DNA of 64,000 nucleotides from contig CACYHH010000005.1 of the NCBI GenBank assembly GCA_902774115.1, forward strand, positions 62,001 to 126,000, given 5' to 3'. Positions 2,371 through 60,922 of the stretch are shown piece by piece. The position numbers and the translations under genes were made by a program. A model generated the notes under the pieces. It made no database searches. It saw nothing but the letters and a program-made list of their open reading frames with translations, and was not told the DNA's origin. Positions within the stretch are counted from its first letter, which is position 1; the number at the start of each line of letters is the position of its first letter. The stretch comes from an uncultured Spirochaetales bacterium. Lineage in GTDB: Bacteria; UBP6; UBA1177.

Positions 2371-2397
2371 TAACTGCTTTTAAATTTTCCAAGTTTT

Positions 2398-3429: not shown

Positions 3430-3431
3430 GC

Positions 3432-14280: not shown

Positions 14281-14685
14281 CTAAATAATCGAAACAATAC
14301 TTTTTGCCCAATCGACAAATTCCTTAGCCATATCTATCGCTTTTACTGCATGGCGTTCTTCAAGAAACAGTTCGTTGGGATAACGCATCGAAACAGCGTA
14401 AGGAGTCAGAATATCTGCATAATTGTAATATTTTTCATCGATTTTGACGGTGTCTTTTATCTGATTCAACAGAAGAAAAAGATCATGCTTTTTGGGGATT
14501 CCGCCCTGACTGCCGTTCAGCACAATCAATGCTTTGACAGCTTTTTCGGCCGCCTGCTGGCAGTGAAAGCACACGATTTCAAGCGGTTTCGGGTTATATG
14601 TCGCCAAAAAATGAGTCGCAACTCCTAAATCCGCTTCCGCAAAGGAAAGCCATTCTTTCGCGTCGTTTAAATTTTCGTTAGCCAT
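14281..14685 (-). CDS. HEPN-domain protein of an MNT/HEPN pair
   Basis: This 134-residue HEPN protein is all-helical. It shows the family blocks WLSFAEADL, CFHCQQAAEKAVKALIV and KKHDLFLLL, then a helical C-terminus with YAVSMRYPNEL. The classical RxxxxH RNase motif of toxic HEPN proteins is not obvious, so nuclease activity is doubtful. Its start overlaps the end of the MNT gene by 8 bases. MNT/HEPN pairs act as toxin-antitoxin modules in which the nucleotidyltransferase modifies the HEPN protein, and some have other roles. Family assignment is good; toxicity is inference. Confidence 0.85.
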   Translation of the reverse strand: MANENLNDAKEWLSFAEADLGVATHFLATYNPKPLEIVCFHCQQAAEKAVKALIVLNGSQGGIPKKHDLFLLLNQIKDTVKIDEKYYNYADILTPYAVSMRYPNELFLEERHAVKAIDMAKEFVDWAKSIVSII

Positions 14686-14989
14686 ACAGCAGCACTCCTT
14701 TGTTCATAACTTCGTTTTCAATTCCCATTCTGTTTTTACGGCTTTCAAATCGGCTCTCCGTGCAGATGACAATGTCCACTGCGCGGCTTCGCACCGAACG
14801 GATTGACTTGTAAGCTTCAGCCGTCAAATCGGCAAGATTCTGTGAACCGTCCTTGACAATGATATAAAAATCGAAGTCGCTGTCTTCGGTCGCCGTTCCG
14901 TCCGCAAATGAACCGAAGAGATATATTTTCAACGGTGTCAGCTCGTTCACAAGTTTCTCTTTTATGAGATTGATTTCATTTTCAGGCAT
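14678..14989 (-). CDS. MNT-type minimal nucleotidyltransferase
   Basis: This 103-residue protein has the minimal nucleotidyltransferase core: GSFADGTATEDSDFDFYII, with the GS motif and two catalytic Asp residues (DxD), and a third acidic position in VDIVI. Length fits solitary MNT proteins. In MNT/HEPN pairs it would transfer an AMP group to its HEPN partner and so neutralise it. GGAGG precedes the ATG. It is the first gene of the pair, 8 bases overlapping the HEPN gene. A palindrome lies in its leader at 15008-15029. Confidence 0.87.
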   Translation of the reverse strand: MPENEINLIKEKLVNELTPLKIYLFGSFADGTATEDSDFDFYIIVKDGSQNLADLTAEAYKSIRSVRSRAVDIVICTESRFESRKNRMGIENEVMNKGVLLYG

Positions 14990-44568: not shown

Positions 44569-45267
44569 ATGGACGCATACGAAATCATAAAACTCATCAG
44601 CGAATCGAAAAAAAAGACGCCGGTGCGCGCGCTTTTCAAGGGAAATATCGAAAAATGCGACTTTTCGGTTCTGGCGGAAACTTACAAAGGCCTTGATTTC
44701 ATCGAGGTTTACGACGAGTTCGACAAGATCCGCGATTTCGCGGCTGCCCATCCGGAAGTAACGATGACCCGCTTTGAAAACGACCGCAGAAACTCGGCGA
44801 TCCCGCTTGCAGACCTTACAAAGATCAATGCGCGGATCGAGCCGGGAGCAGTCATCCGCGAAATGACCGAGATCGGTGACAAATGCGTCATAATGATGGG
44901 CGCGGTGATCAATATCGGCGCGGTGATCGGCGAAGGAACTATGATCGACATGAACGCTGTCATCGGCGGACGTGCGACAGTCGGCAGAAACTGCCACATC
45001 GGCGCAGGAACAGTCCTTGCAGGCGTCATCGAGCCTCCGAGCGCAACTCCCGTTAAAATCTGCGACGGAGTCATGATCGGCGCGAACGCAGTTGTTCTTG
45101 AAGGTGTCACGGTAGGCGAGAATTCAGTCGTCGCGGCAGGTTCGGTCGTAACGAAAGATGTGCCTCCCCGCTGCGTGGTCGCAGGAGTCCCCGCAAAGAT
45201 AATCAAACAGGTCGATGACACCACGAAATCAAAAACCGAACTCGTCGAAGCGCTGCGTAATCTTTAA
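44569..45267 (+). CDS. dapH: Tetrahydrodipicolinate N-acetyltransferase
   Basis: DapH acetylates tetrahydrodipicolinate with acetyl-CoA in the acetylated branch of lysine and diaminopimelate synthesis. Length is 232 residues. After an alpha/beta N-terminal region, the left-handed beta-helix hexapeptide repeats are plain ([74 protein letters not shown]), ending [14 protein letters not shown]. This is the YkuQ/DapH type rather than the succinyl DapD. The ATG follows the GT2 stop at once with GGAG in that gene's end. Confidence 0.94.
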
Positions 45268-47048
45268 TTTTCTTCCGGTTCCCTGAAAACTATCGACTGT
45301 TCCAGTGCTTCGAAGTAGTCGTCGGTCGAGAGATGGCTGGTCTCGTTCATTATGCTCAGGATCCTGTAAAGGCTTTTGTACCAGTTTTCTGTCACGTTTT
45401 TCGAGAGGAACATGTAGTGGTATTTCGCGGGGCCGGGAATCACCGAAGCGAGGTAGGCCGATTCAAGCGGCGTGAGCTGATACGGCTGTTTTCCGAAGTA
45501 ATAGTAAGCCGCCTGCGAAATGCCGAAGATGCCGGGTGCCCATTCAATTATGTTGAAATAAATTTCAAGAAGGCGCTCTTTTGAAAGGGCTGCGTCGAGT
45601 TCTATGGCAAGAAGAACTTCGCGGAATTTGCGCAGAAGGGTTTTGTCGCGGTTCAAAAAAAGGTTTTTTGCAAGCTGCTGAGTGATAGTCGAGCCGCCGC
45701 GCATCCTGTGGGTCTTGATGTTGTCCTTCACGGCGGCGTCAAGTTCCTGGAAATCGACTCCTTTGTGGACGAAAAATCCGGCGTCTTCCGAAACGACGAC
45801 CGCCCAGATTAAGTGGTCGGGAATAAGCGCCATCGGAGTGAAGTAAGGGTTGCGCTCGCCGACGAAAATTTTTCTCGTGCTGCCGTCTTCGTTTGTCCAG
45901 ATGTATTCAAAAGGCAGTTTGAGGTAATCCATGCGTTCTGAAAGCTGTTTCGGTTCGATAAGGTTGCCGATGATAGAAAAAACGGGCGGTTCGTCGCCTT
46001 CCTGCGAGTATTCTGCAAAAAGTTCGAGCGTTCCGCCGAAAAGGTAGCCTTCAAACGCTTCGTCGTGGATCAAAGTTTCAAGTTTGTTAAGATTTGCCGA
46101 TTCTGTTTTTATCGAAAATTCTTTTGATGTTTTGCTGTAACTTCCAGAAAATACCGCATTGATGCCGCCGAGAGAAAGTTCTGCCTCTTTTGTTTCGGCA
46201 GATTTTTCGTCTTTGTCGAAAGCTACGTCACCTTTGAAGCGGAAAAGCGGCAGTGTGAAGGGCTGGGAATCGATCAGCGGATGGAAAAAGGTCAGGTCGT
46301 GGATCGTCATGTCGTTTTTCAGGAGAAATTTTCCTTTTTCTTCCGAAATTTCAGAAAAAGAGCTGATTTTTCCGGCTGAAACGTCAAAAGAGGTTTTGTT
46401 TTTTATGATTTCGTGAAAATCATTCAAATCAATTCCGTCAAGCCGCACCGAAGCGCTTTTATCTTTAAGCGAAAAGCGGATCTCTGCGGTTCCGCCGTTT
46501 GCTTCGCCGAGCTCTTTGAAAAGCGCCTTGCCGCCTGAGCGGGAAAGGTCAAGGTTCGTTGAAAAACTCTGCGTAACGCTGCCGAAAACAAAGTCGGTAT
46601 CCGATTTGAATTCTATTGAAAAATCGGGAACACCGCGGTTTTCATTTGTCTCTTTTTCCAGCTTTTCGTCCTTGTTCAAAAGAATCGGTGCTTTAAGCGC
46701 TTTGTCCGCATGAATCCTTGAGTTTATGCAGGTTGTCTTCAACTTTTTTTTGTCTGAAAAAAGCATTTTGCGGAGATTTCCGAGAGAGCATTTTTCCAAC
46801 ACGGCGAGTTCGTTTCCGCCATGCGAAAATACCGCTTTTTTTACAAATATCCGCGGTGGAAAGAATGAGACGTCAAGACCGGAAATTTCGGTGTCGATGC
46901 CGTATTTAGCCTTTATCAGAGCGGTTGCCTTTGATGAAAACCCGTCGATTTTCCCTTTTGATACTTTTTCAAGCGCAAATATGGCAACTGCCGCCGAAAC
47001 GAGCAGAAAAATGACCGCCGCAGTGATTTTTTTTAGTTTTGTGCTCAT
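45264..47048 (-). CDS. GT51 peptidoglycan glycosyltransferase with AsmA-like N-terminal region
   Basis: This 594-residue membrane protein has one N-terminal helix (about 9-27), a long beta-rich AsmA-like region (about 30-370: [25 protein letters not shown], lists of SLG.L segments) and a GT51 lipid II-polymerising domain (about 390-560). GT51 marks are [15 protein letters not shown] (catalytic Glu), [41 protein letters not shown] and [10 protein letters not shown]. It has no transpeptidase domain, so it is monofunctional like MtgA but with a large outer domain. The start overlaps the pepF stop in ATGA. It ends inside the convergent dapH stop. Confidence 0.86.
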
Positions 47049-48811
47049 AAATCGAGGAATTTCGAGATATCTTCTTTGATGAGTTCGAGAGAGTTTTTCC
47101 AGAAATTTATGTCGTTCAGATCAACGTCAACTATTTTTGCGACGTCGGTTACGCTGCGTTTGCCAGTTTCCGAAAGGAGAAATTCATACTTTTCGGTAAA
47201 GCTGCAGCCGGTTTCGGTATATTTTGCGTAAAGTCCTTTTGCGAAAAGAAGCCCGAACGCGTAGGGGAAGTTGTAAAAGTTCCAGTCAGGGTTGTAATAG
47301 TGCGGTTTGATGAGCCAGAGATAGGGGTGAAGAACTTTTTCGTCAAGTCCGTCACCGTAAGCTTCGGTCTGCGCCTTCGTCATTTCTTCACAGAGCTGTT
47401 CAGGCGAAAGCGGAGCTGTTTCACGTGCTTTGAAAAGCGCCGTCTCGAAAAGGTATCTGCTGTAAATATCGACTATGACTTGTCCTGCGGAGGAAATTTC
47501 GGATTCAAGAATGGCGAGTTTTGTCTCTTTGTCAGCCTCTTTGAGTGCTGCCTGGTTGATTATCGTTTCACAGAAAATCGAAGCTGTCTCTGCAAGCGGG
47601 GAAGGGTATCTGGTGTTTAAAATCACATTTTGAGAAAGGCAGTGACCGTGGAATGCGTGACCGAGTTCGTGAGCTATAGTCGTAACATCGTTGTATGAGC
47701 CGCCGAAGTTGGCAAGGATCCTGCTCTGCGAAATCGAAAAAAGGTTTTCGCAGAAGGCACCGCCCACTTTTCCGGGTCTGATTTCGGAATCGATCCAGTT
47801 GCTTTCGAAAGCGTTTTTTGCGAAATCTCCGAGTTTGCTGCTGAAAGTGGAAAATTTTTCGATTATGAATTTTGCAGCTTCTTCGTATGTGAAATTTGAC
47901 TGAGCTTTTGTAGTTACCGGCGCGAAAAGGTCATAAAACGGCAGAGATCCGCTCAAACCGAGCATTTTCGCTTTCTTTTTGTAGTAGGCTCTGAAACAGG
48001 GGAGATATTCCCTTATCGCCGAAAACATCGTGTCGATGATGCTTTTTTCCATCCTGTTTTTTGTCAGAACCATCTCGAGTACGGAAGAGTAACCGCGCGT
48101 TCTCGCCAGAATGATCGATTCTCCTTTTATCGCGTTGATGCAGGCCGCAACGGCTTTTTCGACTTTTCTGTAGGCTCTGATTTCCGATTCATAGGCCTTT
48201 TTTCTCACATCTGCATCTTCGGAATATGCAAGTGCGCGGATTTTGGAGATAGGTTTTATTTCGTTTCTCCCGTCCACTGTTGAAAATTTTCCGGTAAGCG
48301 AGCTGATTAGGACGTTGTGGAGATTCATCCATGACGAAGAGCCGACAAGTTTAAGGTTGGAAATTATCTGTTCCGTCTGGTCGTCGAGAATGTGACGCCC
48401 TTTCGTGATGAGTTCTTCAAAGTGGAAAATGCACTCTTCGAGGTCGGTTCCGCGCAGAGTTTCCGGATCGAATCCGCTTGCGGCGAGCCATTTTATGAAT
48501 TTGACGTCGGCAAGGGAAGTCCTGTTCTGCTTTACCGTAACCGATTCAATGTATGAATTTGCTTCGGTATTGTTGGTGTCGGCGCAGAAAGAAAGGTTTG
48601 CAAAGCAGAGAAGTTTTTCAGTCAATGCAGCGATCTCTGATTTTAAAGCAACGTATTTTTTCAGTATTTCAGGTGCGTTGCCGCTTTTTGAAAGGGTATT
48701 TGCAAATTTTTCGTATTCTTCATTTTTTAAATCGAGTTTCCTGCAGTCGCCTGTAAATTCCGGTGAATCAAAACCTGTATAAAGAGCGCCAAGATTCCAG
48801 CGGTTATCCAT
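47045..48811 (-). CDS. pepF: Oligoendopeptidase F (M3B)
   Basis: PepF is a zinc metallopeptidase cutting short peptides in the cytoplasm. Length is 588 residues. The zinc motif is TIAHELGHAFHG (HELGH, about residue 380), with the family block GAFCENL before it and a downstream Glu in ETASIFCETII as third ligand. The N-terminal region is helical. GGAGAGA precedes the ATG. It overlaps the GT51 gene start in ATGA, so the two are translationally coupled, although a functional link is not obvious. Confidence 0.93.
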   Translation of the reverse strand: MDNRWNLGALYTGFDSPEFTGDCRKLDLKNEEYEKFANTLSKSGNAPEILKKYVALKSEIAALTEKLLCFANLSFCADTNNTEANSYIESVTVKQNRTSLADVKFIKWLAASGFDPETLRGTDLEECIFHFEELITKGRHILDDQTEQIISNLKLVGSSSWMNLHNVLISSLTGKFSTVDGRNEIKPISKIRALAYSEDADVRKKAYESEIRAYRKVEKAVAACINAIKGESIILARTRGYSSVLEMVLTKNRMEKSIIDTMFSAIREYLPCFRAYYKKKAKMLGLSGSLPFYDLFAPVTTKAQSNFTYEEAAKFIIEKFSTFSSKLGDFAKNAFESNWIDSEIRPGKVGGAFCENLFSISQSRILANFGGSYNDVTTIAHELGHAFHGHCLSQNVILNTRYPSPLAETASIFCETIINQAALKEADKETKLAILESEISSAGQVIVDIYSRYLFETALFKARETAPLSPEQLCEEMTKAQTEAYGDGLDEKVLHPYLWLIKPHYYNPDWNFYNFPYAFGLLFAKGLYAKYTETGCSFTEKYEFLLSETGKRSVTDVAKIVDVDLNDINFWKNSLELIKEDISKFLDL

Positions 48812-48939: not shown

Positions 48940-50010
48940 ATGATCATTCCTTTTTCTGAATTAAAACTTTATATTGCGGATTTTGAAGGAAAATATATTT
49001 CGTCTTTTGTCAACGATCTGGCGAACGATTGCGGTCTAAGCCGCGGTCTTGTGCTTGCCGAAGCGGGCAACAGGACGCTTTATGTGCTCATTTCAGACGG
49101 TCGTGCGGTCATTTCAAAAGTTCTGGCTTTTTCAGGCGAAGAAGACTTGGTGACCGATGTTCCGGTTTCTGAGATTCTTGCCGAAAAATCGGTGGATCTT
49201 TATCTTTTCAGCATAGAAAATGACATTGTTTTTACGTGGCTGACCGATTTTTTCACCTATCCGGTCTCGCTTTACGCACCGGGTCGTTTCGTAGATGTTA
49301 TGAAACTCGTTTCGTCGTTTGCGGAAAACAAGGAAAACGCGCTTCTCTGCCTGAAACACGGATCGGTGATGAATGTCGTTTCTTTTGAAAAAGGGAATTT
49401 TAAAGGGTTCGCCTATTTCGATCCGGATGCAAAACGCTATGTTTTTGAGAAAAATGCGGTGAAATTCGGCTCGTATTTAGGTTCGATCGATGTTTCCGGA
49501 CCGGCAGTCCTATGCAAAAAGGTTTCGGAAAAAATTTTAGCTTCATCTTTTTTCAGCAGTGGTCTTGATTTTCTTGAAAATGATCCGCTTCAGACTGAAT
49601 CTGAACTCTATTTCGGCTGTTTCGATCTTGTTTTCGGTGCTTTTGCAAAAGTGATGCCTGTAGAAAAACTGCAACAACTTTCTGAAAAACTTTTTTCATA
49701 TCTTCGCAGCAGGTATCCTGATTTTTATTCAAAACTTTCGTTTTCGGCTGAAACTTCAGCGGTAAACTGGGAAACTATGCTTGACGCAAGAGGATCTGTC
49801 GCCGCCGAATACCGCTTTGGCGAGTATCACAGGTATTTTGACGAGATACTTTGTCTGCTGCTCAAGACTTCCGCATCCCTGCTTTCTCCTGAAAAAAAGC
49901 GGCAGCTTGCCCTTGATATCGGCGAAAAAATCCGCAGATTCGAGGAAGAAAACAGGGATTTTTCAGGAATGTTTGACAGATTCGATAAATTGTTGAAAAT
50001 TCTGCGGTAA
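48940..50010 (+). CDS. Unknown protein heading the FHA/ankyrin/ParA-like operon
   Basis: This 356-residue protein was not recognised. It has no signal peptide or membrane helix and should be cytoplasmic. The N-terminal half looks alpha/beta (LKLYIADFEGKYISSFVNDL, TLYVLISDGRAVISKVLAF, ALLCLKHGSVMNVVSFEKG), and the C-terminal half is helical (EKLQQLSEKLFSYLRSRYP, EKKRQLALDIGEKIRRF). It carries no obvious catalytic or nucleotide motif. It begins a same-strand run of five genes with gaps of 17 bases or fewer, so it probably works with the FHA, ankyrin and ATPase proteins downstream. GGGGGCGGC lies before the ATG. Confidence 0.78.
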   Translation: MIIPFSELKLYIADFEGKYISSFVNDLANDCGLSRGLVLAEAGNRTLYVLISDGRAVISKVLAFSGEEDLVTDVPVSEILAEKSVDLYLFSIENDIVFTWLTDFFTYPVSLYAPGRFVDVMKLVSSFAENKENALLCLKHGSVMNVVSFEKGNFKGFAYFDPDAKRYVFEKNAVKFGSYLGSIDVSGPAVLCKKVSEKILASSFFSSGLDFLENDPLQTESELYFGCFDLVFGAFAKVMPVEKLQQLSEKLFSYLRSRYPDFYSKLSFSAETSAVNWETMLDARGSVAAEYRFGEYHRYFDEILCLLLKTSASLLSPEKKRQLALDIGEKIRRFEEENRDFSGMFDRFDKLLKILR

Positions 50011-50027
50011 CGTTTTTTGAGGTTGGA

Positions 50028-50915
50028 ATGGCTCTGCTGAAACTCATAGTCGAAAACGACAGAAACGAACTTAATATTTTTGAATTCAACGGCAATCTCA
50101 TCACAGTCGGGAGAAGTCCGAAAAACGATCTTGTCCTCGATGAAAGAAATGTGTCGAGATACCACTTTCAGCTTGAGGTTGTGGACGGTCGTATCATCAT
50201 CTGTGACCGCGGAAGCTACAACCACACTTTTGTTGACGAGCGCGAACTGGTTGACGAAAAGCTCGAAATTTTTGTCGGAAACGTCATCACTGTCGGCGAT
50301 TACAACATTTATCTCGAACAGGACGAAGAAGCGCTTCTCAAGACAGTACAGCCTCTGGTGGAATCTGACGGTAAAAAAATCGCTGCCGACAACCTGCTTC
50401 TTGCAAAGAACGGTTATCTCGGCGGAAAGATTTTCCCGCTTGCAGGCCGCGAAACAGTCATCGGAACCCACGCGAGCGCCGATGTCTACCTTTCGGCCGA
50501 CAATATTCCGCCGATCCACTCGAAAATCGTTTTCGACGGCAATATATACCTTCTGGTAAAAGGCGACTACAACGCCGGTTATCCGCTTATCGTGAACGAT
50601 ACGGTGGTCAATTCGGTCGATATGAGGAACGGCGACGAGATCAGAGTCGGCGATTTTATCTTCGAATTTGTCGAAAAAGGCGAGGAGTACGACCCGCAGC
50701 CTTATCAGCTCGAAGCTGAAAAATCGAGAAAGGAAAAACTCAGAAAAGATATAAAAGGGAAGAAAATAAAAAGCATCAACGACGAGGAGCAGGATGAAAA
50801 AACCGAAATCACCCGTGTAAACAAATCGGGAACGGGCAAAAAAATCGTCGTTATCCTGCTTGCTCTTATAGTTGCTGCGGCTGCCGCCGGCGCGGTATTC
50901 TTTTTTGTTCTTTAA
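50028..50915 (+). CDS. Double-FHA membrane protein
   Basis: This 295-residue protein has two forkhead-associated domains and a C-terminal helix. FHA1 (about 1-100) has the full phosphothreonine-binding pattern: VGRSPKNDLVLDERNVSRYH and SYNHTFVDERELV. FHA2 (about 120-225) is degenerate: IGTHASADVYLS replaces the GR..., although IPPIHSKI retains S-H. A Lys/Glu linker and a C-terminal transmembrane helix (about 271-294, IVVILLALIVAAAAAGAVFFF) make it a tail-anchored inner-membrane protein with FHA domains in the cytoplasm. It would recruit kinase-phosphorylated partners to the membrane. GAGGTTGG precedes the ATG. Confidence 0.9.
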   Translation: MALLKLIVENDRNELNIFEFNGNLITVGRSPKNDLVLDERNVSRYHFQLEVVDGRIIICDRGSYNHTFVDERELVDEKLEIFVGNVITVGDYNIYLEQDEEALLKTVQPLVESDGKKIAADNLLLAKNGYLGGKIFPLAGRETVIGTHASADVYLSADNIPPIHSKIVFDGNIYLLVKGDYNAGYPLIVNDTVVNSVDMRNGDEIRVGDFIFEFVEKGEEYDPQPYQLEAEKSRKEKLRKDIKGKKIKSINDEEQDEKTEITRVNKSGTGKKIVVILLALIVAAAAAGAVFFFVL

Positions 50916-51652
50916 TGCGCCTTAAAGAAGTTTTGCAAATGAAATCACCGGTTTTATTCATTTTTTTTATCATTTTTCTTTTGTTTTCATGCTCGACCGA
51001 CAACGCTTCTCTGCTTAAAAAAGCGGGTTATGAAGCTGACGGTACCGGACTTTTGGAAGCTGTCCGGAACGATGATGAAAAAGCTCTCGATATTTTCCTG
51101 AAAATGCCGGAACTTCTTAATTTCGCCGATAAATCCGGAAAAAACGCGGTCATGCTTGCCTCGGCTAAAAAAGACTGCACGATGCTGAAAAAGCTTGCTG
51201 CTGCCGGAGCAAACCTCAAAATTATGGATAATTCCGAAAAAACTCCGCTTCACTATGCCGCGGCAGGAAACTCTCTTGAATGCGCGAAGTTCCTGCTCGA
51301 AAACGGTGCCGACGCCAATATTGCGGATAACTTCGGGCGCGATGCCGCAAACACTCTCTCAAGTCTTGTAAAAGAAGAAAATGTTGAATTATTCAAAATG
51401 CTTATAGAAAAATCGACCGATATCGAAAGGCGCGACAAAGATAAAAAAACGCTTTTTATAATTGCGGCTGAAAAAGGTTTTGCGGATTATGCAAAACTTC
51501 TCATGTCATTGAATGTTTCGCCTCTTTCGAAGGATTTCAGCGGAAAAACGGCGCTTGACTATGCGGCGGAATCGCTCGAAGCCGGGCGTCTTGAAAGCGG
51601 AACATTTGAAGAAATCGAATCCTACACTCAGAAAGTAAAGGAAAAACTGTAA
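50915..51652 (+). CDS. Ankyrin-repeat lipoprotein
   Basis: This 245-residue protein has a signal peptide with lipobox LFSC (Cys 26) and about five ankyrin repeats (about 40-225), clearest in KTPLHYAAAGNSLECAKFLL and ENGADANIADNFGRDA. Ankyrin folds bind partner proteins. The first ATG shares a base with the stop of the FHA gene (TAATG), which favours coupling; an alternative ATG at 50939 gives a shorter, well formed signal peptide. It is on the other side of the membrane from the FHA domains, so any contact would be by the tail helix or other parts. Confidence 0.85.
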   Translation: MRLKEVLQMKSPVLFIFFIIFLLFSCSTDNASLLKKAGYEADGTGLLEAVRNDDEKALDIFLKMPELLNFADKSGKNAVMLASAKKDCTMLKKLAAAGANLKIMDNSEKTPLHYAAAGNSLECAKFLLENGADANIADNFGRDAANTLSSLVKEENVELFKMLIEKSTDIERRDKDKKTLFIIAAEKGFADYAKLLMSLNVSPLSKDFSGKTALDYAAESLEAGRLESGTFEEIESYTQKVKEKL

Positions 51653-51667
51653 TACGAGGTGAACTGA

Positions 51668-53293
51668 ATGGTAAAGCTGATTGCGGCATTTTCTCCGAAA
51701 GGCGGGGCGGGAACTTCGATGATAATCGCAAATCTTTCGATTTACCTTGCCCAGAAAGGAAAAAAAGTCCTCCTTATAGATGCGGCTCCCAACGGCGGAA
51801 CGCTTCATTCCTATCTCAACCTTCCGACGATAGCTGTTTCAGATGAAGTCGCAGAGCATTTTTCAGTGTTGCCGCTTATTTCGACCGATTACCAGAATCT
51901 TAGTTTTTTCAGCAACTTGCAGCATCAGGATTCGAAAATCAGCGAACTTCTTACGCGCTGGCAGGGTGAGATGGGGCAGGTTCAGTTCGATTTCGTTTTC
52001 ATCGACATGGGTTCGGTAATAAATCACGATCTTATGGATGTCATCGGAATTGCCGATTATTCGCTCATGTTCCTTTCGCCGGACTTCATTTCGTTTGAAA
52101 AAAGCAACTATTTTTTCCGGGAACTTTTCAATTACAGGCTTCGTAACATCGAACTCAAATACGATATCCAGCTTGAAACGCAGAATATAAGACGTGCTAA
52201 AAACGATTATCTTTTCACTTCGCGGAACCTGCTTGTCCTGCTTTCTCAGGCGATCCCGAAAACTGCCAATCAGATTGCAAACGTGGTGAACGGCCTGAAA
52301 ATAGGTGTTGTTTACAACGGCGTGCGGAACTCTGCGGACAAGGAACTTGTGCAGCCTTACCGTTTTCTGATCAGCAACAGTCTTGGTATCGAAACCGATT
52401 CGATAGCGGAAATAGCCTATTCGGATCTGGTACCGACTTCTGTCGCTACGATGAAGCCGGTCGTAACTTTGGAGAAAAACGCCGAGTTTGTAGATGCTCT
52501 CGACAAATTCGCAAGCACGCTTTCCGCAAATCTTTTTCAGCAGAGTTCGATCAAGAAAAAACTTAAAGTTACGCCGTTCAACTACTATGAATGGTTCGGT
52601 CTTGACCGCGGCTGCTCGACTTTCGACATCAACAACCAGTATGAAAAGCTGAAAAAACTTTATGTCGGCGACAATCCTATGCTGCGCGATATTTACAGCG
52701 ACAGCGATCTTTTCTTGCTGAATTCTCTCATTGATACGATCTTCAAAGAGCTCAACGATTCGGAAATAAGGCGTGAATACGACATGGATATAAACAGTCA
52801 CCTTCAGTCGCTCGAAACTTCATTTCCCGATATTTTCATGATCGGCGAAGTCATCAAAAAATATAACCGCGTAAAGAAACGGGAAGTTCTTGTCAAAAAA
52901 GACGTCTTCGGGCGCAGTGCCGAAAAGAGGGTTGCCGTTTCTTCCAGCAGCGATTTTGTAGATGCTAACGAAATATTCAATAAATACCGTGACTTGTCGG
53001 TGACGGGCGATCTCTTGAGAAAGATCCGCGAGGAAGTTGGGATATCGTACGAACTCATCATTTCGCGCACCAAAATATCAAAGATGGTTCTTGATGCGAT
53101 AGAAAACGATAAATATGCCCAGCTTCCGGCAGACCTTTATGTCAAGAATTTCGTTCAGCAGTACTGCAAGACTCTTAAACTGAATGCCGCGAATACAGAG
53201 GCGATAGTTTCCGGATATCTGAGATCCAAAAACGGTCCGGTCGTTTCGGAGAACGTTCCTTCCGATACGGAAAATCAAGAGGTCAAAGCATGA
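51668..53293 (+). CDS. TadZ/ParA-like atypical ATPase fused to J-like and RodZ-like HTH domains
   Basis: This 541-residue cytoplasmic protein has three parts. Residues 1-285 are a ParA/MinD fold: SPKGGAGTSMIIANLSIYLA keeps the signature Lys of the deviant Walker A motif but has Thr in place of the usual P-loop Lys (KGGxGTS rather than KGGxGKT), as in TadZ/CpaE proteins; VFIDMGS (about 110-116) is Walker B-like. Residues about 305-375 (NYYEWFGLDRG, EIRREYD) resemble a DnaJ J-domain without the HPD motif. Residues about 447-520 match the RodZ-type HTH_25 domain (LRKIREEVGISYELIISRT, LDAIEND). The order of these domains is one I do not know. GAGGTGA precedes the ATG. Confidence 0.82.
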   Translation: MVKLIAAFSPKGGAGTSMIIANLSIYLAQKGKKVLLIDAAPNGGTLHSYLNLPTIAVSDEVAEHFSVLPLISTDYQNLSFFSNLQHQDSKISELLTRWQGEMGQVQFDFVFIDMGSVINHDLMDVIGIADYSLMFLSPDFISFEKSNYFFRELFNYRLRNIELKYDIQLETQNIRRAKNDYLFTSRNLLVLLSQAIPKTANQIANVVNGLKIGVVYNGVRNSADKELVQPYRFLISNSLGIETDSIAEIAYSDLVPTSVATMKPVVTLEKNAEFVDALDKFASTLSANLFQQSSIKKKLKVTPFNYYEWFGLDRGCSTFDINNQYEKLKKLYVGDNPMLRDIYSDSDLFLLNSLIDTIFKELNDSEIRREYDMDINSHLQSLETSFPDIFMIGEVIKKYNRVKKREVLVKKDVFGRSAEKRVAVSSSSDFVDANEIFNKYRDLSVTGDLLRKIREEVGISYELIISRTKISKMVLDAIENDKYAQLPADLYVKNFVQQYCKTLKLNAANTEAIVSGYLRSKNGPVVSENVPSDTENQEVKA

Positions 53294-54165
53294 ATCCCTA
53301 TATTTTCAAGCCGGCATTCGATTTCTTCGGATTTCCTTATCCCGGCGCATACATGACGATTCTCTTTTTTTCGTTTTTCATGACGCTCCCGATAATGATT
53401 TTTGCTTCGAAACAGTTCAATATGAGCTTTAGGAAAATGTGTTTTCTTCCGCTTGTCATTGTTCCTTCAGCCCTTTTTTTTTCCAAAGTTTTTCACATCC
53501 TGTTCGAAGATATGAGACAGGTTTACATGGATGGTTTGAGGGAAAACGGCATAAGTTATCTTTGGACTATGTTCAACCCCTTTGCTCCGGGGCACGTTTT
53601 TTACGGCGGACTTTTCGGAGGCTTTTTGGCGGGAGCGCTCGGCACTCTTGCTGTTTATCCTCATGACCGGACCGCGTTCCTTAAAACTGCCGACGCTGCT
53701 TCGATCTGTGTGGCAAACGGGCTCTGGCTCACAAGAATCGGCTGCTTTCTTGAGGGCTGCTGTTTCGGAAGACCGTCTCAGCTTTTCGGAATACGTTTTC
53801 CGCAGGGTTCTAAGACGATGTTCATGCTTTACACGCTTGATCCGGAACATACAAACCTTTTTACTGACACTCAGCCGATAATTCCTACACAGCTGATCCA
53901 TTCTTTCAGCAACTTTGTGATATTGGCAGTCCTTTTAAAACTCGCTTTGTCGAAAAACCCCAAAAATCCCGGTTATATTTCGGCAATTTTTCTTCTTTCA
54001 TATTCTGTAACCCGCTTTTTGATCGAATTTCTGCGTTTCGACCCGAGAGGAAGTTTTTTAATGTTTTCCACAAGTCAGTGGATCTCGATTATTCTTTTTA
54101 TCGGCGGTTGGAAACTTTTTCAGAAAACAAAGACAGCGAAAAATACTAAGAAAAAAGTCAGGTAA
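53290..54165 (+). CDS. lgt: Prolipoprotein diacylglyceryl transferase
   Basis: Lgt adds a diacylglyceryl group from phosphatidylglycerol to the lipobox Cys of prolipoproteins in the inner membrane. This 291-residue protein has about seven hydrophobic segments and the Lgt pattern: YGGLFGGFLAGALG (the H-GG region reads FYGGLFGG), then LTRIGCFLEGCCFGRPS, which corresponds to the family's RIGNF.NGE block, and FLIEFLRFDPRG near the end. It departs from the E. coli form in several positions. Its start overlaps the ATPase gene stop in ATGA. A window with so many lipoproteins makes the assignment sensible. Confidence 0.85.
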   Translation: MNPYIFKPAFDFFGFPYPGAYMTILFFSFFMTLPIMIFASKQFNMSFRKMCFLPLVIVPSALFFSKVFHILFEDMRQVYMDGLRENGISYLWTMFNPFAPGHVFYGGLFGGFLAGALGTLAVYPHDRTAFLKTADAASICVANGLWLTRIGCFLEGCCFGRPSQLFGIRFPQGSKTMFMLYTLDPEHTNLFTDTQPIIPTQLIHSFSNFVILAVLLKLALSKNPKNPGYISAIFLLSYSVTRFLIEFLRFDPRGSFLMFSTSQWISIILFIGGWKLFQKTKTAKNTKKKVR

Positions 54166-55521
54166 CTATTTGACGCAGATAACTTTGTGAGTTTCTTTTG
54201 CTTTGTCAGCATAACTAATCCCACCAGAGTAAGTGTGTATGCGCCAAGCTTGTTTGATGTTCATCGGATTCGTCGAAGATGACCAGAAGTAGGCTGATCC
54301 TATTCCAGGAAAATCCGAAGCCGGTGACAATTTTGAATAGTTAATGACGGTTGCGAGTTCGTTTATGCTGGGCAATCTCCAGTTTTTTCTTCCGGCATAA
54401 TTCAGCGTTTCACAGTAGTTCAGTGCTGACTGCCATGTATGTAAACTGTTGTCGCTGATCGTCCAGATAAGATTATTTGTTTCATCACTAACAATCTTTT
54501 GGGATGTTGTCTGATCTATTATTGCTTCAAATTCTGAATCCTCAAGTTCGTTTCCGCTGACACATTTCGGGTAGAAAAATTTGTTGTTAGCCTCATCTGT
54601 TATAAGTGCTGTTCCGAAATCAATAACCCAAAAATTTCCATTGTTTGCTTTAGATGCTGTTTCAGTCCAGAATTTTTTGAGAGATGTTGAAGGAATAGTG
54701 AAGTATTTCTGGTTAATTGTCGGAGTCTGACTGAGATCAACAAGTGTTTCAAGTTCTTTCAGAGTTGGAAGTCTCCAAGTTTTTCCTTCCAGTTGTAGAT
54801 TGTTGCAGTAATTTACAGCTTCCTGATGCGAACAGGTTTTTCCTGAGTTTCCGCTGCAGCCTTCAAATTGTTCCGGAGTGTCTTTTTGCCAAACAAGAGA
54901 AGTAATGTTGTCAATTACGGTTTCGCTTGAAGTTGTCGTTGTGTAACTTTTTTTGAGGCAGTATTTTTCCATAGCATACTGTGCATCCTGACCGAAAAAG
55001 TCTTCATTTTTAGAGTTCGGGCATTCTATGTCCTCAAAAAGATTATAGCATTTGGTGAGTCCTGTGCAGATGACTACAGGATCATCCTTGCCTGGAAATG
55101 GGTCATCGTCATTCTCGCCTGGAGTACTGTCTTTGTCGTTCACTTCTTCATCCGGAATATCTTCATTATCTTTGTCTGGCATATCTGAGTCTTCATCATC
55201 TGGATTGTTGTGATTGTCACCGTCAGGTCTATTGTGATCGCTGTCATCAACAATATCTGTATTGTCTGGATTTTCGTTGTCTGATTCAGAGTCTGTATCG
55301 TCCTGAGTTTTGTCAGCATCAGTTTCGGTATCAGAATCGTCAGGATTGGTATCCTCATCTGTAGCGGGAACATGGTTGTCCTTATCTTCTTCTTCAGAAT
55401 CTTTGTCAACGGCGTCGTAATCGTCCCAATCATCGTATTTGCTGCCTTTGCCGCCGCAGCTTATACAGAAAACGAGTGCCGCAAGAAGAAGGAAAAAAGA
55501 GAAAGTTTTTTCTAATTTCAT
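54166..55521 (-). CDS. DUF1566 lipoprotein with acidic stalk, two DUF1566 units
   Basis: This 451-residue lipoprotein (lipobox CISC, Cys 22) has a long Asp/Asn/Glu-rich stalk (about 25-150: DNENPDNTDIVDDSDHN). Two DUF1566 units follow: the first (about 190-325) has QEAVNYCNNLQ, WRLPTLKELETLVDL and FWTETAS; the second (about 345-451) has QSALNYCETLNYAGRKNWRLP, SINELATVIN and FWSSST, ending VICVK. It is preceded by a CTGLTKCYNLFEDIECPN block. A start 21 bases earlier exists but GAATAGGAGA favours this ATG. It lies 10 bases after the giant cysteine-rich gene and is cotranscribed with it. Confidence 0.83.
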   Translation of the reverse strand: MKLEKTFSFFLLLAALVFCISCGGKGSKYDDWDDYDAVDKDSEEEDKDNHVPATDEDTNPDDSDTETDADKTQDDTDSESDNENPDNTDIVDDSDHNRPDGDNHNNPDDEDSDMPDKDNEDIPDEEVNDKDSTPGENDDDPFPGKDDPVVICTGLTKCYNLFEDIECPNSKNEDFFGQDAQYAMEKYCLKKSYTTTTSSETVIDNITSLVWQKDTPEQFEGCSGNSGKTCSHQEAVNYCNNLQLEGKTWRLPTLKELETLVDLSQTPTINQKYFTIPSTSLKKFWTETASKANNGNFWVIDFGTALITDEANNKFFYPKCVSGNELEDSEFEAIIDQTTSQKIVSDETNNLIWTISDNSLHTWQSALNYCETLNYAGRKNWRLPSINELATVINYSKLSPASDFPGIGSAYFWSSSTNPMNIKQAWRIHTYSGGISYADKAKETHKVICVK

Positions 55522-55531
55522 GGTAAATCTC

Positions 55532-58500
55532 CTATTCAACACAAATTACATAATTGCTGTTTGTCTTAGAATCAACGATAATGCTTCCCGAAGAGAAGTC
55601 AACGACATAAGCCTGAGTCGGATCAGTGCTCAATGTCGTTGAAGTCCATGCCGTGCGGGTAAATCCAGGAATCAGCGAGCCGCCTTTTGTATTTATAAGA
55701 CGGACAAGTTCGTTAGTTGTCGGGAGTCTCATTTTGTTGATGCCGTTAAAGTTGACCTGTTCGCAGATTTTTAAAGCATTCTTCCATGTGTCGTTCTGCA
55801 TTGTTTCTCCGAAATACCAGAAAGAGAATTTCAATTGAGAGTTCATAATTACTGCGAAATCGAATGTCGCAACAAAAAACCGATTCTGTTTTATGCACTG
55901 CATTACGGAGCAGGTTTCTTCATCGGAACGTACGCATTTTATCTGAGCCGTACCAGTTGACGGTGCCGCTGTACCATCAACAGTTGAGAATACAATTCCC
56001 TCGAGGGTCCAGTAACTGCCGTGAGTGTTCTCAAATCCAGAATAAATGTGCGGAGTCGAAGCGTAATCCATAATTGTCGTAAATTCAGCAACAGTTGGCA
56101 GTCTCCAATCGTCATAACCGCCTGTAGTGCTGTTTTCGCAATAATCTATAGCTTCATCAAGAGTGCATGAATTATCATCCAGACAGCCGCTGTAGCTCGA
56201 TGGTGTTTCTTTCTGCCATACAAGTTGAGAAAGAGTTTCCGTGATGACTGTCGGATTTCCGGCGTCAAGTGTGAAAGAGTGTTCCAAATGCGTGAAGTTA
56301 GGTTCCTGACCGAAGAATGCTTCTCCGCTGGACGGACACGGTATGATTGAATCATTGTCATAACAGTTTGTCTGCATTGTTTCAAAGAAGTCCGGTTCGT
56401 ATGAATCAGCATTGTCGCATACACCCTCTATAATAGGCGTGCAGTCGAGGTCACAGGTGTTGATGAATCCGCTTCCTTTGAACTGAGGTATCAGCGAACA
56501 CGGTATCGGCGTTTCCATAGTGCCTGGTTCGCAGATTTCGTCCTTGCCGATTTCTCCGTCGCCGCAGCTTGAGTAGCCGGAGCATGTTCGGTTGCAATTA
56601 TCGTGATATCCGTTGTTTTCTCTGCCATGATCGCATGTTTCTTCTTCTTCGCCTTCAGCGAATGTGGCTATCTGACAGCAGTTTTTAGTTGTTTCTTCGT
56701 TACATAGGGGCAGTGTGCCGCAGTTTTCCTCAGATGCTTTCTGGGTTTTGCCATCGCCGCATTCCCCGGCTTCCCGGAATCCGTCGCAGTGTTTGTTGCA
56801 GTGGTTATATTTTCCGTTCAGGTTATCGCCTTCGTCGCATATCTCGTAAGCGCCTGTGACAACATGACATTCACCTTCAGCACCGGTACAGTCTGAACGC
56901 TGGAGTATTCCGTCTCCGCATCTTTCAGAGCTTGGACCGCTACAATTACTATTGCAATGACCGTAAGTCCCATTGATTCCTTCGTATTCGTCACATGATT
57001 CGTTCATTCCTTCAACCTCTGCGCAGTTCGCACCGTAACCGAGGCAATTTTCGCGCTGAATGATTCCGTCACCGCAGAAGAGAGTCTGACCGGTGCATGT
57101 ACTGTTGCAGTGGTGTGGGGTTCCGTTGAGGTCATCGCCATCGTCGCATATTTCGTCAACGCCTGTGACAACCTGGCATTCCCTTTCAGCACCAGTGCAG
57201 TCTGAACGCTGGAGTATTCCGTCTCCGCATCTCCATGTAACAGTTCCCGAACAATTGCTGTTGCATTTTCCGTATTTTCCGTTGACTCCTTCGCCGTCGT
57301 CGCACGCTTCCTCTCCGGGATCGGTAATACCGTCACCGCAGTAATGCGGAGTTCCAGGCAGGAGTATACACGATGCCGAACATACAAAGCATTCAGTTTT
57401 GTTATGAATGTATGCACAGTCGCCGCTGCCGTTTGATGTTCCGTTGTCGCACTGTTCATGAGCATTTGCGGTGTTTATACATGCAGGATCACCGGCGGCA
57501 CATTCTTCAGATTGGATGATGTTGTCACCGCAGTAAGCCGCTAATCCTGAGCAGTCATCGTTGCAGTTCGGAGAGTTTATATTCTCAACGGGATATTGTC
57601 CATTAAACGCGCCGCTGTCGCAGAATTCGCTGCCGTTCAGGAATCCGTCGCCGCATTTACTGATCGAGGAGCATGTTTTGTTGCAATGATTGTAGGTCCC
57701 GTTAATTTCGTCGCCTTCGTCACATTCTTCATCCATTCCCGGAGCTTCGAAACAGTTTTCGTATCCTGCACAGTCGGTGCGCTGGATTTTGCCGTCTCCG
57801 CATCTTGGCATGTAGGCAGAACATTCGAGGTTGCATGTTTCGCCTGCTCCTCCGTCATCGCATATTTCGCTGTTTTCCGTATCAGTTATACCGTCGCCGC
57901 AATATGAAGTTTCTCCTTCGGCGAGTTTGCATGAAAGAGTGCAGACCAGACAGTTTGTTTTACCGTAATCGCATTTTGTATTTCCGTTATTTCCGCCGAA
58001 GTCACACTCTTCGTCACCGTTGAGATTGCTGTCACCGCAGGACCCGTAGGTTCTAATGCAGTCATCTGAACAATAAGCTCCGATGCCTTCGCCTTCTCCT
58101 ACGCTTGGAAGAGCATTGTCGCAGAGTTCGTTTTCCTGAATTTTTCCGTCACCGCAATATCCTGTTATCGTTTTGCAATCGGAAGAGCAGTAGTCTCCGT
58201 CGTCGTTATTTCCGTCGTCACACGTCTCCTCATTTATTTGAATGATTCCGTCGCCGCAGGATCCGCCTATTGATTTACAATCGGCAGAACAGTAGGTTCC
58301 TATACCTTCACCTTCCCCAACACTGGGAGCAGCTTTGTCACAAAGTTCGTTGTTCTGAACTTTTCCGTCGCCGCAGGATCCTGTTATCGTCATGCAGTCG
58401 GCAGAGCAGTAGTCTCCGTCATTGTTGTTTCTGTCGTCGCATACCTCACCGTTAGCACTGTCAATTATACCATCTCCGCAGTATGAAACTGTTGATGCAT

Positions 58501-60922
58501 CGCGGAGTTGGCATCCTGTGTTGCAGACTTTGCAACCCGTTTGACCATATTCACATGCCGTTTTACCGTTGTTTTCGCCTTCATCGCAACCTTCACCTTC
58601 ATCTCCCTGAACTTTTCCATCGCCGCAGTAGCCGCCTTCGCCATGTCCGTTGCAGTTTTCGTTGCATGAACCAGGAGCGTAGAAAGTGTAGTGTCCGTTG
58701 TTAATTCCATCGTCGCACTCTTCTCCGTTGTCAGTATCAGTGGTTCCGTCTCCACAGTGGTTTCCGATACCGGAACAGTCGGTTTTGCATTTTCCGTATT
58801 GTCCGTTTACTCCATCGCCATCATCGCAGATTTCGCTGCCGTTTATTTCACCGTCGCCGCAGCGTTCGCCCTGACCGTAGCAGCCTTCCAGACAGTGACC
58901 GTAGGTTCCGTTAAGTTCGCCGTCGTCACATGTTTCGCTACCGTTGATTTTTCCGTCGCCGCACCATGTCGCGTTCCCGTCTTCAAGCTTGCACGAGTCG
59001 GAACATATCTTACAATTTTTCTGACCGTAAGGACATTTCGTGTTGCCGTTATTGTCGCCGGCATCGCATTCTTCCTCTTCGAATCCGTCAATAAATTCCA
59101 CTATTTCACAGCAGTTTTCAGTTGTTCCTTCCTCACAGAGAGGTAATGTTCCGCAGTTTTCGGCGGAAGATTTTTGGGTTTTCCCGTCACCGCAATGTGC
59201 AGATGTTCCTGAGCATTCATTATTGCATTTATCATATTTTCCGTTATCTATTCCGTCGTCACACTTTTCACCGTATTCAGATTCTGTCTGTCCGTCGCCG
59301 CAGTAATGAGGTTTCCCTGCTTTGAATTTGCATAAATCTGTACAAACATCACAGTTCTTTTCACCGTAAGCACAGTTTGTTAAGCCGTTAGCGGTGCCTA
59401 AATCACAATCTTCATTGGTTTGCTTGGTTCCGTCACCACATGTTCCGATTATTTTCTTGCAGTCTCCAGAGCATGAAGAACCGATACCTTCGCCATTGCC
59501 GACATCTGGAAGGGCATTGTCGCAGATTTCGTTATTCTGTTTGATTCCGTCACCACACTCGCCGAGTTTGGTTTTACAGTCATAAGAACAATATGAGCCT
59601 ATTCCATCTCCGAAAGTTGCTTTGTCGCATGCTTCGCCGTCAAGAAGGCTGACAATGCCGTCTCCGCAGTATCTCGGATTTCCTGTATATTTTTTGCATC
59701 CTGCAGAACACAGTTCGCAGCCCAAGGCCGAATTGTATGGACATTCCTCGTTTCCGTTGGCGCTGCCTCGATCGCACTCTTCATTAGTTTGCTGAATACC
59801 GTCTCCGCAATAACCTGCAATCTCGGTACAGTTATCCGAACAATAAGGTCCTATTCCGTCGCCGAAGTTTGCCTTGTCGCATTTTTCACCGGCATCAGTG
59901 CGTAAAATACCGTCTCCGCAGTAGCCGCGAGAAGTTTTGCAGTCTGCCGAGCAGTAATCGTTCTCCTCGTTGTTTCCGTCATCGCACGCCTCGTTGCTTT
60001 GCCTGATTCCGTCTCCGCAGTAAGGTCCTTTGCCGGAACAGTCGAATTTGCAGTATCCGTAGAAGCCGTTGTGGTCTCCGTCATCGCACTCTTCGTTTGG
60101 TTGAAGTTCGCTGTCACCGCAACCACCAATTATTTCAAGACAGTTAATGCTGCAATAGTAGGGTCCTATTCCTGCACCTCCGCCTTGTCCAGGCGCTGCG
60201 TTATCACAGGCTTCGTTTGACTGTTTTATTCCGTCGCCGCAAAATCCTACCAGCTCGGTACATTCTTCGTTGCAGTATGGATTTTCGACAGGATCACATT
60301 CTTCGTTCCACTGTTCTATTCCGTCACCGCAGAATCCTATTACGGTCTTACAATCTGCCGAACAGTAGTCTCCGTCGAGATTGTTTCCGTCGTCGCACGC
60401 TTCACCGTTGTCAATAATTTCGTCTCCGCATTTTGCTAAAGTGCAGTTCGGACGACATGTTATTTCATAAGTTCCCGGATTAGTATTATTATTTATTCCT
60501 TCATCGCACTGTTCACCGGGATCAAGTATTCCGTTTCCGCATTCCGGAATATAGACAGGTTCATCGTGGTCGCTGTCTTCGTCCGGAGTTGTATCGGTGT
60601 CGTCGGGAATATCTGCGTCTGAATCATTTTTCCCAGTATCAGAATCGTCAGTCGGTTCGGTATCTGAAATGTCTTCGTCATTTTCCTGATTTTCGTCCGG
60701 ATCATTAATCGAGTCTTCATCTCCAGCAGGTTCGCTGCACACTTTGTTTATGCAGAAAAGACCCTCTTTACAGTCTTCGTTTTTTTTGCACGGATCGCCG
60801 ATGTTTCCTTTTTCAGTTGTAGGATCGTCATCCGGATACTCGTAAATAGTTTTGTCTTTGTCGTGACACGAGGAAATGACAAGAACAAAAAGCAAGCAAA
60901 TCAAAATCTTGAAAATTTTCAT
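55532..60922 (-). CDS. Giant lipoprotein of Myxococcus-type cysteine-rich repeats with C-terminal DUF1566
   Basis: This 1796-residue lipoprotein (lipobox VISSC, Cys 19) has a small cysteine domain (CKKNEDCKEGLFCINKVC, about 42-60), an acidic stalk (about 65-130), and then an array of more than 25 cysteine-rich repeats (about 130-1500) of the kind CGDGI.Q.NEECDDGNN..GDYCS.DC. These match the Myxococcus cysteine-rich repeat/DUF4215 family. Each unit has six or so cysteines and is likely disulfide-bonded and rigid, so the array would form a long rod on the cell surface. The last 290 residues (about 1507-1796) are two DUF1566 units ending SNYVICVE. AGGAG precedes the ATG. Confidence 0.9.
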   Translation of the reverse strand: MKIFKILICLLFVLVISSCHDKDKTIYEYPDDDPTTEKGNIGDPCKKNEDCKEGLFCINKVCSEPAGDEDSINDPDENQENDEDISDTEPTDDSDTGKNDSDADIPDDTDTTPDEDSDHDEPVYIPECGNGILDPGEQCDEGINNNTNPGTYEITCRPNCTLAKCGDEIIDNGEACDDGNNLDGDYCSADCKTVIGFCGDGIEQWNEECDPVENPYCNEECTELVGFCGDGIKQSNEACDNAAPGQGGGAGIGPYYCSINCLEIIGGCGDSELQPNEECDDGDHNGFYGYCKFDCSGKGPYCGDGIRQSNEACDDGNNEENDYCSADCKTSRGYCGDGILRTDAGEKCDKANFGDGIGPYCSDNCTEIAGYCGDGIQQTNEECDRGSANGNEECPYNSALGCELCSAGCKKYTGNPRYCGDGIVSLLDGEACDKATFGDGIGSYCSYDCKTKLGECGDGIKQNNEICDNALPDVGNGEGIGSSCSGDCKKIIGTCGDGTKQTNEDCDLGTANGLTNCAYGEKNCDVCTDLCKFKAGKPHYCGDGQTESEYGEKCDDGIDNGKYDKCNNECSGTSAHCGDGKTQKSSAENCGTLPLCEEGTTENCCEIVEFIDGFEEEECDAGDNNGNTKCPYGQKNCKICSDSCKLEDGNATWCGDGKINGSETCDDGELNGTYGHCLEGCYGQGERCGDGEINGSEICDDGDGVNGQYGKCKTDCSGIGNHCGDGTTDTDNGEECDDGINNGHYTFYAPGSCNENCNGHGEGGYCGDGKVQGDEGEGCDEGENNGKTACEYGQTGCKVCNTGCQLRDASTVSYCGDGIIDSANGEVCDDRNNNDGDYCSADCMTITGSCGDGKVQNNELCDKAAPSVGEGEGIGTYCSADCKSIGGSCGDGIIQINEETCDDGNNDDGDYCSSDCKTITGYCGDGKIQENELCDNALPSVGEGEGIGAYCSDDCIRTYGSCGDSNLNGDEECDFGGNNGNTKCDYGKTNCLVCTLSCKLAEGETSYCGDGITDTENSEICDDGGAGETCNLECSAYMPRCGDGKIQRTDCAGYENCFEAPGMDEECDEGDEINGTYNHCNKTCSSISKCGDGFLNGSEFCDSGAFNGQYPVENINSPNCNDDCSGLAAYCGDNIIQSEECAAGDPACINTANAHEQCDNGTSNGSGDCAYIHNKTECFVCSASCILLPGTPHYCGDGITDPGEEACDDGEGVNGKYGKCNSNCSGTVTWRCGDGILQRSDCTGAERECQVVTGVDEICDDGDDLNGTPHHCNSTCTGQTLFCGDGIIQRENCLGYGANCAEVEGMNESCDEYEGINGTYGHCNSNCSGPSSERCGDGILQRSDCTGAEGECHVVTGAYEICDEGDNLNGKYNHCNKHCDGFREAGECGDGKTQKASEENCGTLPLCNEETTKNCCQIATFAEGEEEETCDHGRENNGYHDNCNRTCSGYSSCGDGEIGKDEICEPGTMETPIPCSLIPQFKGSGFINTCDLDCTPIIEGVCDNADSYEPDFFETMQTNCYDNDSIIPCPSSGEAFFGQEPNFTHLEHSFTLDAGNPTVITETLSQLVWQKETPSSYSGCLDDNSCTLDEAIDYCENSTTGGYDDWRLPTVAEFTTIMDYASTPHIYSGFENTHGSYWTLEGIVFSTVDGTAAPSTGTAQIKCVRSDEETCSVMQCIKQNRFFVATFDFAVIMNSQLKFSFWYFGETMQNDTWKNALKICEQVNFNGINKMRLPTTNELVRLINTKGGSLIPGFTRTAWTSTTLSTDPTQAYVVDFSSGSIIVDSKTNSNYVICVE

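Follow-up and report, generated by a model that had tools for sequence, protein, structure and literature searches.

The window analysed here is a stretch of 64,000 nucleotides of contig CACYHH010000005.1 (assembly GCA_902774115.1, positions 62,001 to 126,000 of the forward strand), and it carries a cluster of five genes, named A to E. Gene D (51668..53293, +) encodes a protein with a MinD/FlhG-like domain (D1, residues 1 to about 290), a J-like domain (about 305-372), and a RodZ-type helix-turn-helix (HTH) domain of the HTH_25 family (449-508), without any transmembrane (TM) segment. RodZ is the standard link between MreB and the membrane. The proteins A, B, and D, together with a Ser/Thr kinase, K, may form a phospho-regulated envelope system in which D acts as the MreB adaptor in place of RodZ, a proposal to which we give an even chance. 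Close relatives among public genomes included "bacterium UBP6_UBA1177" and several metagenome-assembled genomes (MAGs) from ruminants, which placed the organism in candidate phylum UBP6; the Myxococcota placement of the original prediction, a note made earlier on this DNA, was not borne out. Many of the compared genomes were MAGs, in which an absent gene may be a gap, and D was not found in 5 of the 15 genomes of the genus, four of these being less than 85% complete.

The RodZ-type HTH (53012..53191, +; PF13413, 6e-17) matched in profile searches the RodZ structures of S. aureus (3fym, 4.3e-9), Chlamydia (CT009; 4gqm, 3.2e-6), and T. maritima (2wus, 7.1e-6), and the RodZ structure from the MreB complex was among the matches. 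Two aromatic residues of D, Y491 and F495, did not vary within the order and were the counterparts of F60/Y64 of E. coli RodZ and Y66/F70 of Chlamydia RodZ, which are needed for MreB binding (PMC4047632). D shared the HTH type and these two aromatic contact positions with RodZ but differed from it in having neither a TM segment nor a periplasmic part, and in carrying the HTH at the C-terminus behind the J-like domain, fused to or paired with the MinD-like ATPase. In genomes where the J/HTH half was a separate protein, no TM segment was present past the HTH and the chain ended soon after it. RodZ contacts MinJ in B. subtilis and so already touches a Min system (PMC5778138), which makes a RodZ-MinD link within one protein plausible.

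In the genomes of the order that had D, no HTH_25 match other than its HTH was full-length. MreB was present in all 28 genomes searched. Family f4 of the same phylum had neither A nor a full-length D1; it had an HTH protein of 162-168 residues with a TM segment, the layout of an ordinary RodZ. The comparison of RodZ with the ATPase-J/HTH pair was based on 28 relatives and 23 genomes of a second phylum with large genomes, which appears to be Myxococcota, as judged partly on gene content. Of the second-phylum genomes with a full-length ATPase, 19 of 19 had HTH_25 beside it or fused to it, this being the sole full HTH_25 in 13 of them, while the four genomes checked that had no full ATPase comprised three with a stand-alone HTH_25 protein and one with none. 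We consider the presence in D of the genome's sole full RodZ-type HTH more important than the features emphasised in the original prediction, which had only touched on it.

Some ParA-like ATPases regulate transcription factors, as FleN acts on FleQ, and D might accordingly be viewed as a phospho-controlled regulator of envelope genes with a DNA-binding HTH. We hold this to be very improbable. The HTH_25 domain with its late Y..F helix is of the RodZ type, no separate effector domain was present, D was clustered with membrane-anchored proteins, and its occurrence was complementary to that of RodZ, although the HTH fold is generic and FleQ-FleN complexes were found among the fold matches of the D model.

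Pfam assigned D1 to CbiA/ParA (9.7e-11), and the nearest structures to D1 in profile searches were FleN/FlhG (7e-31) and MinD (8e-22). TadZ (3fkq) scored 3.1e-6 against the 7e-31 of FleN, and the "TadZ-like" identity given to D earlier was rejected. TadZ/CpaE and D have the ParA/MinD superfamily in common, but the N-terminal receiver-like domain of TadZ is absent from D, whose ATPase domain starts at residue 1-5, and the neighbours identified in the window and at the sister loci included no Tad/Flp pilus genes. With FlhG/FleN and MinD, D1 shared the fold, the sequence, the signature lysine (K11), and the Walker A' and B aspartates (D38 and D113), all three residues being invariant; it differed from them in the replacement of the catalytic lysine by Thr throughout the order and in the extra J-like and RodZ-like domains of D. 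No flagellar or min genes were recognised beside D.

The deviant Walker A motif KGGAGTS (K11-S17 of D; 51698..51718, +) retained the signature lysine and had T16 at the position of the catalytic lysine. KGGxGTS was invariant in the order, and the homologues from other phyla had the full motif KGG[VIT]GK[ST]. The ParA/MinD motif has been listed as KGGXXK[S/T], and BcsQ (RGGVGTT) has no catalytic lysine (PMC9178275). BcsQ also ranked with the top fold matches to the D model. It resembles D in having a MinD-like domain without the catalytic lysine; D differs in its partners and its extra domains, and no cellulose synthase genes were present at the D locus. Owing to the loss of the catalytic lysine, as in BcsQ, D1 seems to serve as a scaffold that binds nucleotide and not as a fast ATPase. 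Of the "positioning-type ATPase" with a RodZ-like HTH described in the original prediction, the HTH was confirmed while the positioning ATPase became doubtful for the same reason. The helix before the J-like domain (residues 272-290), checked as a membrane-targeting helix of the MinD type, had a hydrophobic moment of 0.42.

Rather than an MreB adaptor, D and its split homologues could represent an orphan ParA/MinD positioning system, with the J/HTH part as a cargo adaptor whose HTH binds DNA or a protein other than MreB, the kinase and FHA proteins as mere modulators, and motility, secretion, or the chromosome as candidate cargo. ParA/MinD ATPases often have the genes of their partner proteins close by, a point that equally favours D as an MreB adaptor, and a positive charge at the N-terminus is frequent among such partners (PMC10241942). 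In UBP6, the J/HTH proteins that are separate from the ATPase begin in this way (MKKTK.., MKKAK..). The likeness of the ATPase domain to FleN/FlhG and MinD and the full Walker motif of the other-phylum homologues agree with such a system too. Nevertheless, we regard it as unlikely, though deserving of some weight: the catalytic lysine was lost order-wide, the HTH profile matched RodZ structures first, and D carried the sole full RodZ-type HTH of these genomes in a distribution complementary to the TM-type RodZ.

The original prediction had described D as an ATPase with an HTH and had missed the J-like domain between them (52580..52783, +; PF00226, E 0.0095). The J fold was supported, at the level of sequence only, by a PF00226 match of 1.5e-10 in an orthologue from another phylum and by a match of the UBP6 profile to the Hsp40 structure 6rzy (5.2e-5). 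D had the J fold in common with Hsp40 J-domain proteins, but no member examined, from UBP6 or from other phyla, had the HPD motif, so stimulation of Hsp70 is unlikely.

Within the order, the fused form of D occurred in two clades and the split form in others: D was a single gene in the genus of the window, in G015 (a genome from the sister genera and families), and in family f3, and two genes in G016-G019. Its halves were also fused in G392, which belongs to another phylum. Because the two halves were fused independently, a physical pair is indicated, and the ATPase half and the J/HTH half very probably act together. This fusion pattern is stronger evidence than the congruence of the gene trees described below. 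Across other phyla, a J/HTH partner was found at 7 of 20 loci of the ATPase family; the pairing is common but not universal. A search of a plasmid collection gave no match to D, and no description of a MinD-J-RodZ protein was found in the open-access literature. In the second phylum, the ATPase and J/HTH pair usually lay between genes for an HNH endonuclease and the pseudouridine synthase RluD (L045, L119-L138), an arrangement of which no description was found in the literature. On a short contig from another family (L207 of G336, 2345-4086), the homologue of the D ATPase had a Ser/Thr kinase gene immediately after it, with no J/HTH gene on that contig.

The order A-B-C-D-E recurred in genus members (L031-L034) at 48-99% identity, which indicated that the adjacency was not due to chance, and two other members (G001 and G008) had B-C-D-E without A. 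The set with an ankyrin lipoprotein C and an lgt-like E was confined to the genus of the window. In sister genera and families, the locus read A - B - mtnA - Y - D - K - (hsp33) - nadK at 23-75% identity, where Y is a lipoprotein of 1000-1200 residues with tetratricopeptide repeat (TPR) and transglutaminase-like domains. The run from A to K was complete in eight genomes (G015, G016-G021, and G023), in all of which the Ser/Thr kinase gene came immediately after D within one operon; Y was shortened to 223 residues in G015. A divergent genus member (G010) had A-B-mtnA-ankyrin lipoprotein, followed by the end of the contig, and in the genome of the window K-hsp33-nadK lay together on another contig (G000:C2:290867 onward), with K 67% identical. 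In the genus of the window, the ankyrin lipoprotein took the place of Y, mtnA was lost, K-hsp33-nadK was relocated, and an LGT-family gene was gained.

The trees of A, B, D1, D2 (the J/HTH half), K, and nadK agreed, with pairwise distance correlations of 0.74-0.98. A, B, D, and K have descended together by vertical inheritance, which by itself is no proof of interaction. The original prediction would have read the cluster as chance had its genes been rarely adjacent beyond close strains or their trees discordant; A, B, and D were clustered beyond close strains, and the trees were congruent. It is improbable, in our judgement, that A to E are simply co-transcribed housekeeping or unrelated genes whose adjacency has no functional meaning, since three families retained A, B, and D as a group at 23-60% identity, with metabolic neighbours gained and lost around them, and the two halves of D were fused repeatedly. 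Such an explanation would draw on the unrelated enzymes and chaperones in the operon (mtnA, hsp33, nadK, and lgt), the detachment of the kinase, and the loss of A in some members.

B (50028..50915, +; Pfam FHA, 1.3e-20) is a tail-anchored FHA protein that was 51-99% identical across the order. Its first FHA domain (FHA1, residues about 5-98) had all the phosphothreonine-binding residues intact (R29, S43, H46, and N65), and its C-terminal TM segment spanned residues 273-291. The second domain (FHA2, about 128-216) was degenerate and had no Arg, so that the "double FHA" phosphothreonine reader predicted earlier stands as a protein with two FHA domains and a tail anchor, of which only FHA1 has an intact site. 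Just before the TM segment, B had a conserved E257-x-T259 motif. GarA and OdhI are FHA switch proteins. They resemble B in an intact FHA phosphothreonine site, a conserved Thr motif outside the FHA domain, and a Ser/Thr kinase partner; B differs in being tail-anchored, in having two FHA domains, and in the C-terminal position of the Thr motif, and the metabolic targets of GarA/OdhI are not expected for it.

K was composed of a kinase domain, a TM segment, and a PEGA domain. The kinase encoded at the start of the window, which had been taken as a sign of phosphothreonine signalling in this organism, was rejected as the kinase of the cluster, being 36% identical against 67% for the true orthologue on the other contig; the kinase link itself was supported through K downstream of D in the relatives. 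In one genome (L091 of G003, 8138-9521), the K gene was split over two frames by a frameshift or an assembly error.

In the proposed mechanism, A, B, and D would be the remnant in this genus of an order-wide envelope-signalling operon that once encoded a transmembrane Ser/Thr kinase. K would sense the envelope via its periplasmic PEGA domain and phosphorylate threonines, either on itself or, probably, in B, at the TE[IV]T motif beside the TM segment, and FHA1 of B would read the phosphothreonine at the membrane and so attach or release D, with A. The kinase-FHA step, that is, phosphorylation of B or of K itself and binding of the product by FHA1, is proposed by analogy with GarA/OdhI. Within D, the MinD/FlhG-like domain would bind ATP and serve mainly as a nucleotide-gated scaffold for dimerisation or membrane recruitment, the J-like domain would be a protein-binding connector without Hsp70 function, and the C-terminal HTH would bind MreB in RodZ's stead; a periplasmic lipoprotein (TPR or ankyrin) would be the outer partner. 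MreB binding, membrane recruitment, and the chain from K through B to D are predictions from sequence. The kinase-controlled positioning or assembly machine at the envelope suggested originally thus gained a kinase link, through the shared operon in eight genomes, the intact FHA1, and the common history, and lost the ankyrin protein and lgt as core parts.

Several observations weigh against D as a kinase-controlled MreB adaptor. D has no TM segment, which RodZ has, and the full D model reached a pLDDT of 66, moderate confidence only. In proteins other than D, an HTH_25 domain may be DNA-binding, and aromatics at the contact positions are widespread among HTH_25 members. The ATPase family occurred without J/HTH in several other phyla. 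The kinase was unlinked in the genus of the window and A was absent from two genus members, which implied that the linkage is not strictly needed, and since mtnA, hsp33, and nadK are metabolic or stress genes, some of the operon neighbours are passengers.

More tentatively, proteins in which a MinD/FlhG domain is fused to, or paired with, a J-like domain lacking HPD plus a RodZ-type HTH could constitute an unnamed class of MreB adaptors that replaces RodZ in UBP6 and much of the second phylum and is wired to a kinase via FHA in UBP6, so that phosphorylation would set MreB-based growth or polarity. If true, RodZ would have been replaced lineage-wide by a protein without a membrane anchor and with a MinD-class nucleotide domain, a single polypeptide would link Min-type patterning to the MreB elongasome, and a direct means of control would lie in the neighbouring FHA and kinase genes. 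The relatives with the kinase in the same operon suggest kinase control of the shape machinery in uncultured rumen bacteria. No description of RodZ wired to FHA and a kinase was found in the open-access literature, which was covered in part. If the second phylum is Myxococcota, as it appears to be, the idea would be open to immediate test in Myxococcus xanthus, whose MreB, polarity, and Ser/Thr kinases are subjects of research and for which the open-access literature searched gave no description of the ATPase-J/HTH pair.

A (48940..50010, +) is a soluble protein of 356 aa without an assigned family, and every role given to it here is putative. Profile searches found it in 20 of 25 genomes of the order and in none of 361 others, and it had no match in Pfam, NCBIfam, or the PDB sequences. 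Its AF2 (AlphaFold2) model (pLDDT 88.3, pTM 0.82) showed two alpha-beta-beta-beta units and a helical C-terminus, for which Foldseek found no convincing PDB match (TM-scores about 0.1). The closest hint was DUF4388/PATAN, a likeness too weak to establish the identity (best hhalign probability 29%). Frames with FHA and DUF4388 (PATAN) together recurred in the phylum (G000:C4:136011-136829 and similar) and may bear on the nature of A.

C (50939..51652, +, or from an alternative start at 50915) is an ankyrin-repeat lipoprotein (Pfam Ank, 3.4e-25; lipobox LFSC). It was rejected as a core component: it was specific to the genus, and the TPR/transglutaminase lipoprotein occupied its place in the sister genera. 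The same held for E (53290..54165, +), a membrane protein of the LGT family (Pfam LGT, 1.9e-32) that occurred at this locus within the genus only. One Lgt is usually enough for a genome. Seven LGT-family matches, including E, were found in this 2.5-Mb genome, a far better one lying elsewhere (G000:C14), and E scored 95.9 against the TIGR00544 cut-off of 118.9, below the curated Lgt equivalog. E is hence a non-canonical paralogue and not the canonical Lgt of the genome; the original prediction had taken it for the lipidating enzyme of the cluster.

All five open reading frames were confirmed on the + strand. The tight packing noted before was real, with gaps of 17 bases between A and B and 15 bases between C and D and an ATGA overlap between D and E; the junction of B and C was either TAATG or 23 bases, depending on the start of C chosen. 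The single candidate promoter was not recovered: the promoter scan, which was uninformative, gave fewer sites than shuffled sequence and none on the + strand upstream of A.

Upstream of the cluster, a peptidoglycan transglycosylase gene (45264-47048, -) had PF00912 at residues 398-554 and about 400 N-terminal residues that matched no Pfam model, and it adjoined a gene for an M3-type peptidase, recognised by eye (47045-48811). Downstream (54166-60922, -), Lcl_C (DUF1566) domains occurred in the products of two lipoprotein-like genes; one product is 1796 residues long and contains numerous DUF4215 repeats rich in Cys. This pair lay beside the cluster in much of the genus and yet was 36-46% identical, which indicated fast evolution. 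Farther away, a gene pair at 14281-14989 (-) resembled, by eye, a toxin-antitoxin pair of the HEPN/MNT type.

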